Below, one piece after another: positions 4,045 to 10,789 of a stretch of 64,000 nt of DNA; the first letter of the stretch is position 1; each line of letters begins with the position of its first letter. Source of the DNA: Actinomycetales bacterium (GTDB taxonomy: Bacteria > Actinomycetota > Actinomycetes > Actinomycetales > Microbacteriaceae); assembly GCA_015654475.1 (NCBI GenBank), contig JAATGV010000037.1, forward strand, positions 1 to 64,000, read 5' to 3'. The translations under genes were made by a program, and so were the position numbers. The notes under the pieces are model-generated. The model was not told the origin of the DNA and did not search any database. It worked only from the letters and a program-made list of their open reading frames with translations.

Positions 4045-5046
4045 TCAGGCCTTATCAGCTTCGCCCAACGTGCTTGTGGCGGGGGCGACTGGAACTTCAA
4101 CTGATTTGACTTCTGATTCTACATGAGACTTCGACAACTCGGACTCGTCCTGCGCGTCTTGCGCGGACTCCCCCGAATCTGCCTGATCTGCGGGCGACAC
4201 AACAGGCTCGCGGCCGGGAAGATACGGGCTTGGCTCAAGGCCAGGATGCCTGCGGGTGAGGAAGATGAACAAAACGACACCGAATACCGCGAAAACACCG
4301 GCGACAAGCTGGTTGATCTGAATGCCAAGCACCAGCTCCGTCGGGTCGATGCGCAAGCCCTCCAGAAAATAGCGTCCCACGCCGTACCACACCGCATAGA
4401 GCGCCAACGTCCTGCCCCACTGAAGCGAGAACTTGCGAGACGCCCAGATCAGCACGAGGCATCCGACAACGTTCCATATTGCCTCATACAAGAAAAGGGG
4501 GTGGAACAGCGTCGTCGCAGGCAATCCATGCGGGAAAACAGGGTTATCGACAGGGATCTCCAGGCCCCACGGAAGGTCGGTAGGCACGCCGAAAAGCTCG
4601 TGATTGAACCAGTTTCCCAGCCTCCCAACGGCCTGAGCCAGCAACATCGCCGGAGCCACCGCATCCAAAAATGCGGAGAAACGAATCCCGGCAATCCGCG
4701 TGCCGATCCAGATACCGAGCAGCCCGCCGATCATGGCGCCGAAAATTGCGATTCCACCATCCCATATGCGCACAACCGCCCACGGGTCCGCCCCAGCAAA
4801 AAAATAGTCGGTCGGGTGAGTGAGCACATGGTATGCGCGGGCAAAGATCACACCAAGAGGCACTGCCCAGAAGGCCACATCGATGACAATGCCAGGGTCG
4901 ACGCCGCGCCTCTTCAAACGGATCGCCGTCATCCATAGAGCAAGCACGATCCCGAGCAAAATGCAGAGCGCATAGGCCCTGATGGAGAATGGCCCGATGC
5001 TAAAGCCGTTCCAGTTGGGACTTGGGATGCTCAACGGAAGTAGCAT
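4045..5046 (-). CDS. lgt: Prolipoprotein diacylglyceryl transferase
   Basis: Lgt is an integral membrane enzyme that moves diacylglycerol from phosphatidylglycerol to the lipobox cysteine of prolipoproteins. The product is about 333 residues with multiple hydrophobic segments. It contains GGIAIFGAMIGG and the family signature VGRLGNWFNHELFG. I chose the ATG at 5046 because GGAAGG lies 9 bases upstream; a TTG at 5055 would add three residues but sits directly on that Shine-Dalgarno. The last ~60 residues form a hydrophilic acidic tail beyond the catalytic core, with runs rich in Asp, Glu and Ser, presumably cytoplasmic. It lies 45 bases after trpA, the usual actinobacterial arrangement, so co-transcription with the trp genes is likely. 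A lipoprotein substrate, MetQ, and the next enzyme, LspA, are also encoded in this window. Confidence 0.95.
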   Translation of the reverse strand: MLLPLSIPSPNWNGFSIGPFSIRAYALCILLGIVLALWMTAIRLKRRGVDPGIVIDVAFWAVPLGVIFARAYHVLTHPTDYFFAGADPWAVVRIWDGGIAIFGAMIGGLLGIWIGTRIAGIRFSAFLDAVAPAMLLAQAVGRLGNWFNHELFGVPTDLPWGLEIPVDNPVFPHGLPATTLFHPLFLYEAIWNVVGCLVLIWASRKFSLQWGRTLALYAVWYGVGRYFLEGLRIDPTELVLGIQINQLVAGVFAVFGVVLFIFLTRRHPGLEPSPYLPGREPVVSPADQADSGESAQDAQDESELSKSHVESEVKSVEVPVAPATSTLGEADKA

Positions 5047-5091
5047 GACGGTCAACCTTCCAAACTCATCTGCACCACGGGAAAACCTTCA

Positions 5092-5928
5092 TCATCCTAC
5101 CTGGATGCCCTCAGCATGCGATCCACCAGCGAATCGTCCGGCGGCGAGGGCCGCCGCAACCTCAGTCACACCTGCAACCCCGCCATCGGCTAGGGCGCTC
5201 ACGAGCGCCGAACCAACAATCGCTCCGTCGGCGTAGCTGTTCACATCACTCACCTGCTCAGGTGTCGAGATGCCGATACCGACGCACAAGGGTCGGTCGG
5301 TCACTGCACGCAGTCGGGAGACGAGTGTGCGTGCGGCCTGATCGACCTCGTGCCTTGCTCCTGTGATCCCCATCGTCGAGACCACATAGACAAAGCCTCG
5401 CGACAGCCGGGCGATCATCTCGAGGCGCCCGTCGTTCGATGTCGGGGATGCGAGGAACACGCGCTCCAGCCCTGCCTCGTCGGAGGCGGCCAACCATTCC
5501 CCGGCCTCATCCGGAATCAGATCAGGCGTGATCACTCCGGCCCCTCCCGCTGCCGCGAAGTCACGAGCGAACTCGGAAACCCCATACTGGAGCACAGGGT
5601 TGAAATAGGTCATCGTCAGAACCGGTGCACTCACCGCGGAGGTGATCCTGCGAACGGCATCGAAAACATAGCGGACATGGAAACCACCCTCAAGAGCCGC
5701 AGTGGTCGCCCGTTGAATGACCGGTCCATCCATCACCGGGTCGGAATAGGGAATGCCCAGCTCGAGCACGTCCACTCCAGCCCGCACAATCGCGATGGCC
5801 GCCTCAACGCTCGTATCGAGATCGGGGAAACCAATGGGAAGATAGCCGATCAGCGTTCCCCGCCCCGCCTCGGCGTTCGCCCGAATGGTCTGCTCGACGC
5901 CGAGACGCGCCGCCTTCTCAGCCAACAT
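5092..5928 (-). CDS. trpA: Tryptophan synthase alpha chain
   Basis: The alpha subunit cleaves indole-3-glycerol phosphate to indole and glyceraldehyde 3-phosphate and channels indole to TrpB. The 278-residue product shows the TIM-barrel catalytic segment [15 protein letters not shown], with the conserved acid residues of the family. The start is the ATG at 5928, preceded by AGGGAG at 6 bases; upstream in-frame codons belong to the trpB end read in another frame. The original trpB reading frame overlaps this start by 11 bases, the tight coupling typical of trpBA. Because trpB now stops 143 bases earlier at an in-frame TAG, translational coupling to trpA may be weakened, although trpA keeps its own ribosome-binding site. 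Confidence 0.96.
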
Positions 5929-7162
5929 ATGTTTCTCCCTCACCCAAAAGCCCGAAATACTGGGCAGCAGTGTGCATGTCTTTATCGCCGCGACCCGACA
6001 GCGACACGATGATGACCGCGTCTTTGCCGAGCTCGCGACCAAGCGTCAACGCGCCCGCGAGCGCATGAGACTACTCGATGGCCGGGATGATTCCTTCGGT
6101 GCGGCACAGCAAACGGAACGCATCCATCGCCTCTGCGTCGGTGACCGCGCGATAATCCACACGGCCGATGCTCTTGAGCCATGCGTGTTCCGGACCGACA
6201 CCGGGATAGTCAAGACCGGCCGAAATGGAATGGCTCTCTATCGTCTGCCCATCAGCATCTTGAAGCATCAGGCACTTGGCCCCGTGCAAGACACCGAGCG
6301 TCCCCTTGTTCAGAGTCGCCGCATGCTTGTCGGTTTCGATACCGAGGCCGGCCGCCTCGCACCCGATCAGCGCCACACTGGGGTCGTCGAGGAAGGCGTG
6401 GAATATGCCGATCGCATTCGACCCTCCCCCGACGCACGCAACGACGGCATCTGGCAAGCGCCCCTCGGCCACGAGGATCTGTTCTCTGGCCTCCTCGCCG
6501 ATAATGCGGTGGAACTCGCGGACCATCTCGGGGAATGGGTGCGGGCCTGCCACCGTACCCATCAGATAGTGAGTCGTCTTTGTGTTGGCGACCCAGTCGC
6601 GCATCCCTTCATTGATTGCGTCTTTGAGAGTGCGCGACCCGCTCGTGACAGCGACCACCTCTGCGCCAAGCAATCGCATGCGCGCCACGTTGAGGGCCTG
6701 GCGTTCGGTATCCACCTCTCCCATGTAGATCACGCATTCCATGCCGAACAGCGCCGCGGCGGTCGCCGTGGCCACCCCATGCTGACCAGCACCGGTTTCG
6801 GCGATAAGCCTCGTCTTGCCAAGGCGTTTGGCAATGAGCGCCTGGCCGAGCACATTGTTGATCTTGTGGCTGCCCGTGTGGTTGAGGTCCTCACGTTTGA
6901 GATATATGGTCGCGCCGCCTGCGTGCTGCCCAAACCTGTCCGCACGCGTGAGCAAGGATGGCCGTCCTGTGTAGTCACGGTGGAGTGCAGCGAGTTCGGA
7001 AGCAAAACTCGGGTCGACTCGCGCCTTCTCGAACTCCGCGGTCAACTCGTCGAGAGTCGCAATGAGCGACTCCGGCACGAAACGCCCGCCGAAGCCGGTA
7101 AACGAATCCGTTGCCCCGAAAAAGGGCCCATGCGCGTCCCTCAAATGGGTTGCTTCTGTCAC
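5918..7162 (-). pseudogene. trpB: Tryptophan synthase beta chain, interrupted by in-frame TAG
   Basis: TrpB condenses indole with serine using PLP. From a GTG at 7162 the frame encodes a normal beta chain through 363 residues, including the PLP-lysine segment [15 protein letters not shown] and the phosphate loop VGGGSNAIG. It then hits TAG at 6073-6071 directly after GIIPAIE. The same frame continues for about 51 codons with well-conserved family sequence ([14 protein letters not shown], then SGRGDKDM) and ends at TGA 5920-5918, overlapping trpA. In homologues the position of the TAG is serine (IESSHA), so a single TCG-to-TAG change explains it. The lost segment includes the serine that contacts the PLP ring nitrogen, so the truncated chain should be inactive. 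TAG is an ordinary stop elsewhere here (gmk, rpe, rpoZ). Alternatives are a sequencing error, a recent mutation or amber suppression. Confidence 0.85.
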
Positions 7163-7187
7163 TATTCCTGTCTCATCTTTCTCACAT

Positions 7188-7970
7188 TTACGCGTTGATA
7201 CGCGAAAAATCGGCGAACAACGCCATTGGATTGCCCCTCACGAGCGCCTCGCCGACCAATACCACATCCGCTCCTGCGGTGCGGTACTTCTCGACGTCCG
7301 CCGCAGTCTTGACCGCAGACTCGGCTACTCGAACGACACCATCGGGAATCGCCGAAACCATCTGGCCGAACAAGTCGGTATCCAAGCTGAAATCGTGCAG
7401 ATTTCGCGCGTTGATACCGACGATCTCAGCACCCGCCTGCAGCGCCCGATCCACCTCGTCAGGGTTATGAGTCTCAACGAGAGCCGACATTCCGAGGTCC
7501 GCGGCCAGCTCCCGAAGGCGCACAAGTTCGCCATCAGCCAGAGCCGCGACAATAAGCAGGATGAAGTCGGCACCGGCCGCACGGGCCTCGAGCACCTGGT
7601 ATTCGGTAACCATAAAATCTTTGCGCAAAACGGGCACCGTCACCGCTGCCCGCACTGCACGCAGGTCGTCGAGGTTGCCGAGAAATCGCCGCTGCTCGGT
7701 CAATACCGAAATTGCAGAAGCGCCAGCTGTCTGATAGAGCTTGGCGTGTGCGGCAGGATCGGGGATCGGAGCGAGATCGCCTTTAGAAGGGCTTGCCCTC
7801 TTAATCTCGGCGATGATCTTGACGTGACTTGCCGGAGCGAGCGCCTCTCGTGCGTCTCGTACAGCAGGAGCGTTCAACGCCTCGCGCTCAAGAGAAGTAT
7901 GATCGACGAGTTTCTGTCGTCTCCGGGAGTCTTCGACCGCTCCGGCGACGAGGTCTTCAAGAATAGTCAT
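7188..7970 (-). CDS. trpC: Indole-3-glycerol phosphate synthase
   Basis: This enzyme closes the ring of carboxyphenylaminodeoxyribulose phosphate to give indole-3-glycerol phosphate, the substrate of TrpA. The 260-residue TIM barrel has the family signature [13 protein letters not shown] near residue 50. Further on are PVLRKDF, GINARNL and VAESAV, matching the catalytic and phosphate-binding strands. It is a monofunctional TrpC with no fused TrpF domain. It lies 2 bases after the small membrane protein gene and 25 bases before trpB, so it is in the same transcript. Confidence 0.97.
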
Positions 7971-7972
7971 CG

Positions 7973-8212
7973 TCAGTGCGCCTTCGGCTTATATTTCGGC
8001 CCATTGACGCCCCACCCGGCTTTCGCCATCACCCAACCGGTGAGGAGGCCGATAAAGATAAGAGCGACACCGATGAATACACCGACCGGAACGTTGGTCG
8101 TGAAAAAAAGCGTTCCAACCGAAACTCCGATCAGCATGATGATGACCGCGCTCCAGGCTGCGGGTGAATGTCCGTGTCCCGGTTCAATGGGACCGTGAAT
8201 CGCATCGTTCAT
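7973..8212 (-). CDS. HGxxPAAW-type small membrane protein of the trp operon
   Basis: This 79-residue protein has an N-terminal HGHSPAAWSAV motif and two hydrophobic helices, about residues 20-40 and 44-63, followed by a basic tail ending in YKPKAH. Proteins with this HGxxPAAW signature are found next to trpC in many Actinobacteria; their function is unknown to me. It lies 2 bases upstream of trpC and 29 bases downstream of the other trp-operon membrane protein, so the three are almost certainly co-transcribed. Context suggests a role linked to tryptophan or aromatic metabolism at the membrane, but nothing in the sequence proves this. Confidence 0.85.
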   Translation of the reverse strand: MNDAIHGPIEPGHGHSPAAWSAVIIMLIGVSVGTLFFTTNVPVGVFIGVALIFIGLLTGWVMAKAGWGVNGPKYKPKAH

Positions 8213-8241
8213 CGGATTCTCCTAGTGATGGGTGATTCCCC

Positions 8242-8823
8242 CTATTTTAGGGGTTCTGTCTCGGATTGAGTGGGATCCGCACCCCGACTGAGCCTATCCC
8301 AGGTGGCGATGGAGTCGGTGGGATCCACGTCGCGGTTCACCCCGTGACGCTCCGGGCGGTTTGTCCACACCGCAGATTTGATGACAACAAGGCAACCCAG
8401 AATCGCCGCGAGAGATGCAGCGACGATGCTGACGTACGGCCACCCCATTACCGAACTCGACACAACCAGAGCGCCGAGCGCCGAGCGACCCGCCACACCG
8501 GTGGCTGAGCCCACAACCGCCCCAGACGCTGAAATCGGATCGGCCAGAACGACAACCATGATCCCGACGAGACCCACTCCGAGGAGCGCCTGAAGCACAC
8601 CGAGTACAGCGATGCCGCGTCGCTTGGCAAGACTGAGGGCAGCGACCAAAGCGACGAGCGCCAAGCACATCGGCGCTATCCCAGCGGCTGCCTCGCTGCC
8701 GGTCACGCTGTGCACGCCGCCGCCTACCAGCGTTACCCGAATCCACTCCTGAGTCGAAGCACCGAGCGCGATGAGAGCAAGCGCCGCCGTCAAGAACAAG
8801 ACGGGGCCGCGCCTATTCAGCAT
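8242..8823 (-). CDS. Trp biosynthesis-associated membrane protein
   Basis: A 193-residue membrane protein with about four hydrophobic helices. The C-terminal cytosolic segment reads TWDRLSRGADPT, matching the conserved C-terminal motif of the actinobacterial trp-operon membrane protein family. I chose the ATG at 8823 (protein begins MLNRRGPVLF), which has AGAGG 8 bases upstream; a longer in-frame start at 8880 would add an unlikely charged leader. It lies 75 bases downstream of trpE. The biochemical role of the family is unknown; persistent linkage to trpE and trpC suggests a membrane function coupled to tryptophan synthesis. Confidence 0.88.
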   Translation of the reverse strand: MLNRRGPVLFLTAALALIALGASTQEWIRVTLVGGGVHSVTGSEAAAGIAPMCLALVALVAALSLAKRRGIAVLGVLQALLGVGLVGIMVVVLADPISASGAVVGSATGVAGRSALGALVVSSSVMGWPYVSIVAASLAAILGCLVVIKSAVWTNRPERHGVNRDVDPTDSIATWDRLSRGADPTQSETEPLK

Positions 8824-8898
8824 GACTCCATCCTCTGCTTGGCGGCACGCCTGAGCGACACGCTGCCTCTGCCGCAGCACATATTCGCCATCAAGGTA

Positions 8899-10440
8899 TC
8901 AGCCATCGAGCCTGATCATAGTTTTGGCGATAGAAATGGCTCGCAACGCAGCCGCAGCCTTGTTCTGGGACTCTTCGAGCTCAAGCTGAGGCACCGAGTC
9001 GGCGACGATGCCACCGCCGGCCTGCACGTAACCACGGCCGTCCCGGATCACTGCGGTGCGAATCGCAATCGCCAAATCGCTATCGCCGGCAAAGTCGAAA
9101 TACCCGACGACGCCACCATAGAGGCCACGCTGGCTCGGTTCCAATTCATCGATGATCTCCATGGCCCGAGGCTTCGGGGCGCCAGAGAGCGTGCCCGCGG
9201 GGAAAGTGGCCCGAAACACGTCGATCGAGTCCTTCCCCGGGCTGAGCACTCCCTGCACCGAAGAAACAATGTGCATGATGTGACTGAACCGCTCGATCTG
9301 CATAAACTCCGTAACCTCTACGGATCCCGGCTCACAGACCTTCAACAGGTCGTTGCGAGAAAGATCGACGAGCATCAAATGCTCGGCTCTCTCCTTTTCG
9401 TCAGCCAACAGTTCGACACCGATCTGAGTGTCACGCTCGACCGTCGCACCGCGAGGTCGCGAACCAGCGATCGGATGCGTTATCACCGTCGATTCCGTTA
9501 CCTTCACAAGCGCCTCGGGCGATGCACCGACGATGTGATAAGGCAAACCATCGGCGTCAACGAGGTTGAGCAGGTACATGTACGGGCTCGGATTGAGCGT
9601 TCGCAGCACTCGATACACGTCAAGTGGGTCGCCGTCGAAATCGAGCTCAAACCTCTGGCCGATCACCACCTGAAAGATGTCGCCCGCCCGGATGTATCGC
9701 TTCGCCACCTCGATCGACGAGATGAATTCCTCTGCCGAAGTACGGCGAACAGGCTCCTCAGCCGCGCGAAAATCGACCCGCGCCAAGCTTGCCTGGTTTG
9801 GTTTGGACAAGGCGAGTTGCATGGAGTCCAGCCGCGCACGCGCGTCGTCCCACAACTGCTCGGGGTCGGCCTCAGGCTGTGCAAGCACATTCGCGATAAG
9901 GCTGACCGTGCCGTATCGATGGTCGAGCACGATGAGATCGCGCACAAGAGCGAATGTCATGGGTGGGATCGAATACTCGGCCTGCTTGGTGTTGGGCAGT
10001 CGCTCGATCTGCCGCACGGCCTCCCACCCGAAGTGACCGACCAGCCCTCCCGTCAAAGGCGGCAGCCCGGGAAGGCGCGGCGTGCGCCAACGGCGACAGA
10101 TTTGCTGAAGCGCATCAAGATAGCTCGGCGGAAGAGGCTCATCGCCGAATGCCTCGGCCTGGCTAAGACCCATATCGATCCAAGTCACTTGCTGAGCATC
10201 GGTGACAGTGACAAGGCCATACGCACTCACGCCGACAAAAGAAAACTGCGACCAGATGCCGCCCTGCTCGGCAGATTCGAGGAGGAAAGCCCCCGGATTT
10301 CCCTGAGCCGTCTTGCGGTACACACCCATCGGCGTCTCCGAATCGGCGAAAAGCCGACGAACAACCGGTACGACACGATGGTTCTTGATCCGGCTACGGA
10401 ACTCATCCGGCGTGGTCTGGAAACTCCCAGAGTCACTCAT
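8899..10440 (-). CDS. trpE: Anthranilate synthase component I
   Basis: TrpE makes anthranilate from chorismate, with ammonia from a TrpG partner that is not encoded in this window. The 513-residue protein has the N-terminal LLES tryptophan-feedback element ([14 protein letters not shown]). The catalytic chorismate-binding landmarks are [32 protein letters not shown] and [18 protein letters not shown]. The start is the ATG at 10440, which overlaps the end of hisI by 8 bases and has GAGGGGAG just upstream. That overlap leaves no room for a leader-peptide attenuator, so regulation is either at the head of the joint his/trp transcript or by feedback on the enzyme. Confidence 0.97.
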
Positions 10441-10789
10441 CGATGCTCCCCTCACCCGGCGTCGGCCACAGCTCTCGCGTATCGAAACAGCTATGAGTTC
10501 CCGTGTGGCAAGCCGCTCCGACCTGTTCCACGCGAACCAGGATGGCATCGCCATCGCAGTCAATCGATAGGGACTTGACCGCCTGGGTGTGCCCGGAGGT
10601 ATCGCCCTTGCGCCAGTACTCCTGACGCGACCGCGACCAAAAGACCGTTCGCCCCTCAGCGATGGTGCGTTCGAGTGCAGTACGATCCATCCAGGCGAGC
10701 ATCAGCACCTCGCCGGTGTCGTGTTGCTGAACGATGGCAGGGATGAGGCCGTCTTTCCCGAAACGCACTTGGTTACTCGTGATCGGCAT
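10433..10789 (-). CDS. hisI: Phosphoribosyl-AMP cyclohydrolase
   Basis: HisI opens the purine ring of phosphoribosyl-AMP, the third step of histidine synthesis. The 118-residue single-domain protein contains [17 protein letters not shown] and CHTGTHSCF, which supply the zinc and magnesium ligands. It is not fused to HisE, which is a separate gene here. The ATG at 10789 lies inside the end of hisF (17-base overlap), preceded by AGAGAGG. The 3' end overlaps trpE by 8 bases, joining the histidine and tryptophan genes into one translational relay. Confidence 0.97.

Follow-up and report, generated by a model that had tools for sequence, protein, structure and literature searches.

Does an amber codon within trpB, in a genome placed in the Microbacteriaceae by inference from named matches, reflect a real lesion in tryptophan synthesis, a wrong base in the assembly, or a gene that is still decoded to its end? 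The question arises in a window of 64,000 nucleotides, by which we mean the whole stretch of DNA that was analysed; the genome assembly comprises 2,406,751 bases in 42 contigs and is 98.33% complete.

The interrupted gene and its surroundings

Translation confirmed the observation behind the original prediction, namely that the beta-chain frame meets a TAG at 6073-6071 after GIIPAIE and then stays open to a TGA overlapping trpA. The sense part before the TAG spans 363 codons and ends in EGIIPAIE, and the frame closes at 5920-5918, beyond the trpA ATG at 5928, so that its end overlaps the trpA start. The open tail stood as described, but its length was slightly overstated, at about 51 codons where 50 sense codons were counted (Table 1).

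Table 1. Coordinates of the trp locus in the window, listed in minus-strand order (trpE, ORF, trpC, trpB, trpA, lgt)
Feature	Position	Strand	Remarks
trpE, intact	8899..10563	minus	NCBIfam match over cut-off
ORF, membrane-protein-like by eye	8242-8880	minus	no NCBIfam match at E 1e-25
trpC, intact	7188..7970	minus	NCBIfam match over cut-off; upstream of trpB
trpB, whole frame	5918-7162	minus	415 positions on translation, both stops counted
trpB, translated part, 363 aa	6071..7162	minus	GTG start at 7162 to in-frame TAG; TIGR00263 558.1 bits (cut-off 392.45)
Premature amber codon TAG, codon 364	6071..6073	minus	Ser/Thr column in 109/109 relatives' loci
Conserved trpB tail past the stop	5918..6070	minus	50 sense codons including SGRGDKD, then TGA
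trpA, intact	5092..5928	minus	TIGR00262 232.1 bits (cut-off 102.35)
lgt	4045-5055	minus	downstream of trpA

The translated part exceeds the TIGR00263 cut-off by itself, and reading through the stop raises the score to 608 bits. It contains the PLP-binding lysine, K100 in HTGSHKINN, which matches HxGxHKxN, the motif around this lysine in TrpB. The SGRGDKD motif, at residue 389, lies only beyond the stop at 364 and hence outside the translated TrpB, as had been claimed. The lost part had further been said to contact PLP, and the serine of SGRGDKD in this TrpB is, we presume, the residue known as Ser377. According to the published account, a beta-subunit serine interacts with the PLP nitrogen and the S377A beta subunit is about 300-fold less active (PMC9105233), so that on this source the claim is sound. 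Loss of the whole C-terminal end should be worse than S377A, also for folding. The gene is a damaged trpB, and we do not claim its product as a working TrpB.

The other steps of the pathway that were tested are intact: trpE, trpC and trpA carry no internal stop and exceed their family cut-offs, PriA is intact and over its own cut-off, and two trpD-like genes (L165, G000:C36:60413-61411, and L166, G000:C15:25666-26667) both exceed the trpD cut-off. The former of the two adjoins an ORF that is cytochrome-oxidase-III-like by eye. Since a Shine-Dalgarno-like GAGGGAG (5941-5935) is located six bases upstream of the trpA ATG, trpA need not be silent. The idea of a mobile trpB copy found no support from plasmid or viral-contig searches: window positions 5000-8300 had no plasmid match, and the 27-base stretch across the stop had no exact match in viral contigs, records of the genome itself possibly being excluded in both searches.

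Conservation of the tail and the codon that was lost

Alignment to solved TrpB chains covers residues 6 to 408 of the 414 obtained when the stop is read through, and the tail is therefore no chance match. The tail retains all 15 of its near-invariant columns, defined as those with the same residue in at least 95% of relatives. The mean tail identity minus head identity is -0.07 in the window gene, with a median of -0.09, and the difference ranks 73rd of 101 counting from the lowest; this comparison used 42 tail and 297 head columns in 100 relatives and the window gene, leaving out eight loci in which the sequence pattern failed (L098, L133, L140, L141, L143, L144, L146 and L147) as well as L086. 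In codon use the tail scores +10.1 over 50 codons, per codon among the higher values of the window's coding-like frames. A decayed tail is ruled out by the 15 columns kept and by the lack of drift relative to the head, and, judged by its alignment to relatives, the tail has not drifted. Because the tail retains the look of a TrpB sequence under selection, the lesion would be either young or not real.

At the position of the stop, relatives carry serine in 89 and threonine in 20 of the 109 loci compared (29 genome loci and 80 database-record loci, the latter being the best 80 of at least 593 stretches, and some species possibly occurring in both sets). The column was located by sequence pattern in 104 of these loci, and the remaining 5 were read separately. 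Ten codons were seen there; TCG, used in 34 of the 109 loci, is the only one of them that lies one base away from TAG, which makes a change from TCG to TAG the simplest path. The original prediction of such a single change thus stands as the most economical route; as the genus is represented by this one genome only, the earlier codon is deduced and not read directly.

A second gene, suppression or read-through

The original prediction named two ways in which the strain might escape the lesion, a second trpB and an amber-suppressor tRNA; both were searched for, and neither was found in the 98.33%-complete genome. The PALP profile, TIGR00263 and the trpB protein query disclosed no second trpB. 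Six matches to the PALP family occur in the genome, only one of which is trpB, and NCBIfam models, scanned against domain stretches only, assigned the other five elsewhere: L001 matched threonine ammonia-lyase best and L003 cystathionine beta-synthase, each below the cut-off of the respective model, while L002 and L004 matched cysteine synthase A and L005 threonine synthase. The protein query gave one further match, of 29% identity over 79 residues, which is L001 again.

No CUA anticodon occurred among the 45 tRNA matches of the genome, all of which were assigned anticodons by ARAGORN. Missing from these matches is tRNA-Glu, and one contig (C26; L177, G000:C26:4900-5652) ends 19 bases past a tRNA-Asp gene, where a repeated tRNA-Glu gene probably broke the assembly. 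A gap thus probably contains at least one tRNA, and the absence of a CUA tRNA is not absolute; more generally, the missing part of this incomplete genome could hold a further trpB or an amber-suppressor tRNA. Elsewhere in the genome, a tRNA-like sequence (L162, G000:C17:128323-128406, minus strand) combines good acceptor and T arms with an odd, enlarged anticodon arm. ARAGORN called it Gly-GCC at 44.4 bits, it lies directly upstream of a possible ORF start, no CUA anticodon is seen by eye in a plausible loop, and it is perhaps a tRNA remnant.

Release factor 1 is present, over its cut-off at 480.5 bits and free of internal stops, and no PylS exceeded the cut-off of 178.15, the one match in the genome scoring 21.2 bits. 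A codon-usage caller marked 39 frames of the window as coding-like, 37 of them with their stop inside it (17 TGA, 17 TAG and 3 TAA, the trpB TAG counted), and TAG terminates 16 of the 36 frames other than trpB. Five of the 16 have a coding-like frame directly behind them in the same phase. Considered as possible read-through genes, these five were rejected, the two sides of the TAG being different genes in each pair (permease and fmt; carA and carB; murG and murC; a DivIVA-like and an lspA-like gene; rpe and a PRA-PH, hisE-like, gene). Within the part of the frames scanned, trpB was the only TAG-ended frame in the window found to continue as the same gene past its stop.

Across the family, a trpB match at E 1e-80 was obtained in 388 of 398 genomes, the window genome included, in which the family-wide TIGR00263 search placed trpB as a single copy. 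Of the 150 matches listed, an internal stop occurs only in that of the window genome; the other 149 have none. Because their scores were low or absent, eight of the 398 genomes were re-examined: trpB is split by frame on one contig in two, lies in pieces on two contigs in each of four, and was not found in two. The two split genes (L185 and L188 in G293, L181 in G340) have their halves in different frames of the same contig and are frameshifts. Broken trpB genes in assemblies thus occur elsewhere in the family.

These data bear on two ways in which the window gene might still yield an active enzyme. If the TAG were read as a residue, by a suppressor tRNA, recoding or natural read-through, full-length TrpB would result; the tail is conserved, as read-through requires, and gaps could hide a tRNA, but the tRNA matches with no CUA anticodon, the intact RF1, the absence of a PylS over its cut-off and the regular use of TAG to end other coding-like frames of the window all argue against it, and the 149 other matches listed give no sign of a conserved family device. 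We regard it as very unlikely. Alternatively, the tail could be restarted at one of the in-frame TTG, GTG or ATG codons that it does contain, and the two pieces could assemble; no clear ribosome-binding site is seen by eye before the in-frame TTG, however, the nearest ATG past the TAG is out of frame, and the other matches listed show no internal stop, the splits in G293 and G340 being frameshifts, which leaves this proposal barely credible. Even taken together, read-through and a two-piece enzyme are unlikely, and the related notion of a working TrpB, made by low-level amber read-through or from a restarted tail as a natural throttle on tryptophan synthesis, is highly improbable.

Mutation or assembly error, and comparison with known systems

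The in-frame TAG and the conserved tail behind it are confirmed, and all the findings agree with the alternative originally posed, a recent mutation or else an error. In our judgment, a recent loss-of-function nonsense mutation in trpB, with the strain a predicted tryptophan auxotroph, is the probable explanation. The course of events would then be as follows: (i) a single nonsense substitution, its TAG base taken to be real and not an error, would have arisen at codon 364 of trpB, a gene found only once in this Microbacteriaceae genome; (ii) translation would end at that codon, giving a 363-residue product that lacks roughly the last 51 residues, the PLP-nitrogen serine among them; (iii) because the end bearing this serine is lost, the truncated beta subunit would very probably lack activity, which predicts tryptophan auxotrophy in the strain; (iv) trpA would still be translatable from its own start; (v) the mutation would be recent, given that the tail still resembles a selected TrpB tail.

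Against the nonsense reading it has to be said that intact trpE, trpC, trpA, two trpD-like genes and PriA suit an error equally. The main rival, next after a nonsense mutation, is accordingly a wrong base in the assembly, or an allele of a minor strain carried into the consensus, the real trpB being intact and the strain able to make tryptophan; we hold this to be possible but doubtful. One wrong base would suffice, the tail shows no further damage, the other pathway genes tested are intact, and the assembly is a 42-contig draft that has no second genome of the genus for comparison. The change would be C-to-A, which on the opposite strand is G-to-T, and oxidised guanine in libraries produces substitutions of this class too. 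The trpB genes of G293 and G340, broken by frame on one contig, point the same way, assembly error being a usual cause of such splits.

The wider genome is relevant here. Internal stops were found in 2 of its 127 family matches (the total over the families searched, some matches sharing a gene), the TAG of trpB and a TAA in an ABC exporter gene. The latter gene (L176, G000:C14:20500-25500) has its in-frame TAA at C14:23522-23524, within the nucleotide-binding domain and just before RSVGEAGAELSGGQRQK; coding continues in frame past the TAA, and a second ABC exporter gene adjoins. A second conserved gene with an internal stop speaks against a base error, as 2 in 127 would probably exceed what low-rate random errors produce, but with a poor assembly both stops might be errors.

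If the stop is real, the strain would be a tryptophan auxotroph of recent origin, with the other tested parts of its pathway intact, and a small example of how amino-acid dependence arises. It would also warn against inferring prototrophy from the mere presence of genes, the damaged trpB scoring well over its profile cut-off. The stop opens no long-standing question: this is ordinary gene damage and no new kind of system, and it gives no sign of a special decoding trick. Literature searches brought up no account of a nonsense mutation in trpB among Microbacteriaceae.

Set beside known systems, the gene resembles a TrpB (TIGR00263) of a trpC-trpB-trpA arrangement in that it exceeds the family cut-off although truncated, retains the PLP lysine, adjoins trpC and trpA and is present in single copy; its best-matching solved chains (5tcf, 2o2e and 5ocw) are all tryptophan synthase beta chains. 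Unlike a normal TrpB, it is interrupted at residue 364 by an amber codon that precedes the SGRGDKD loop. The split trpB genes of G293 and G340 share with it an interruption within one contig and differ in that their halves lie in different frames, whereas the stop of the window gene is in frame. Nonsense alleles of trpB and loss of trp genes in auxotrophs are familiar from laboratory amber mutants of E. coli and from the damaged trp genes of Chlamydia. The present case is like these in combining one lesion in one gene with a pathway that is otherwise intact, as tested, and unlike them in coming from a Microbacteriaceae genome, in which a real allele is the likelier account and an assembly error a lesser possibility.
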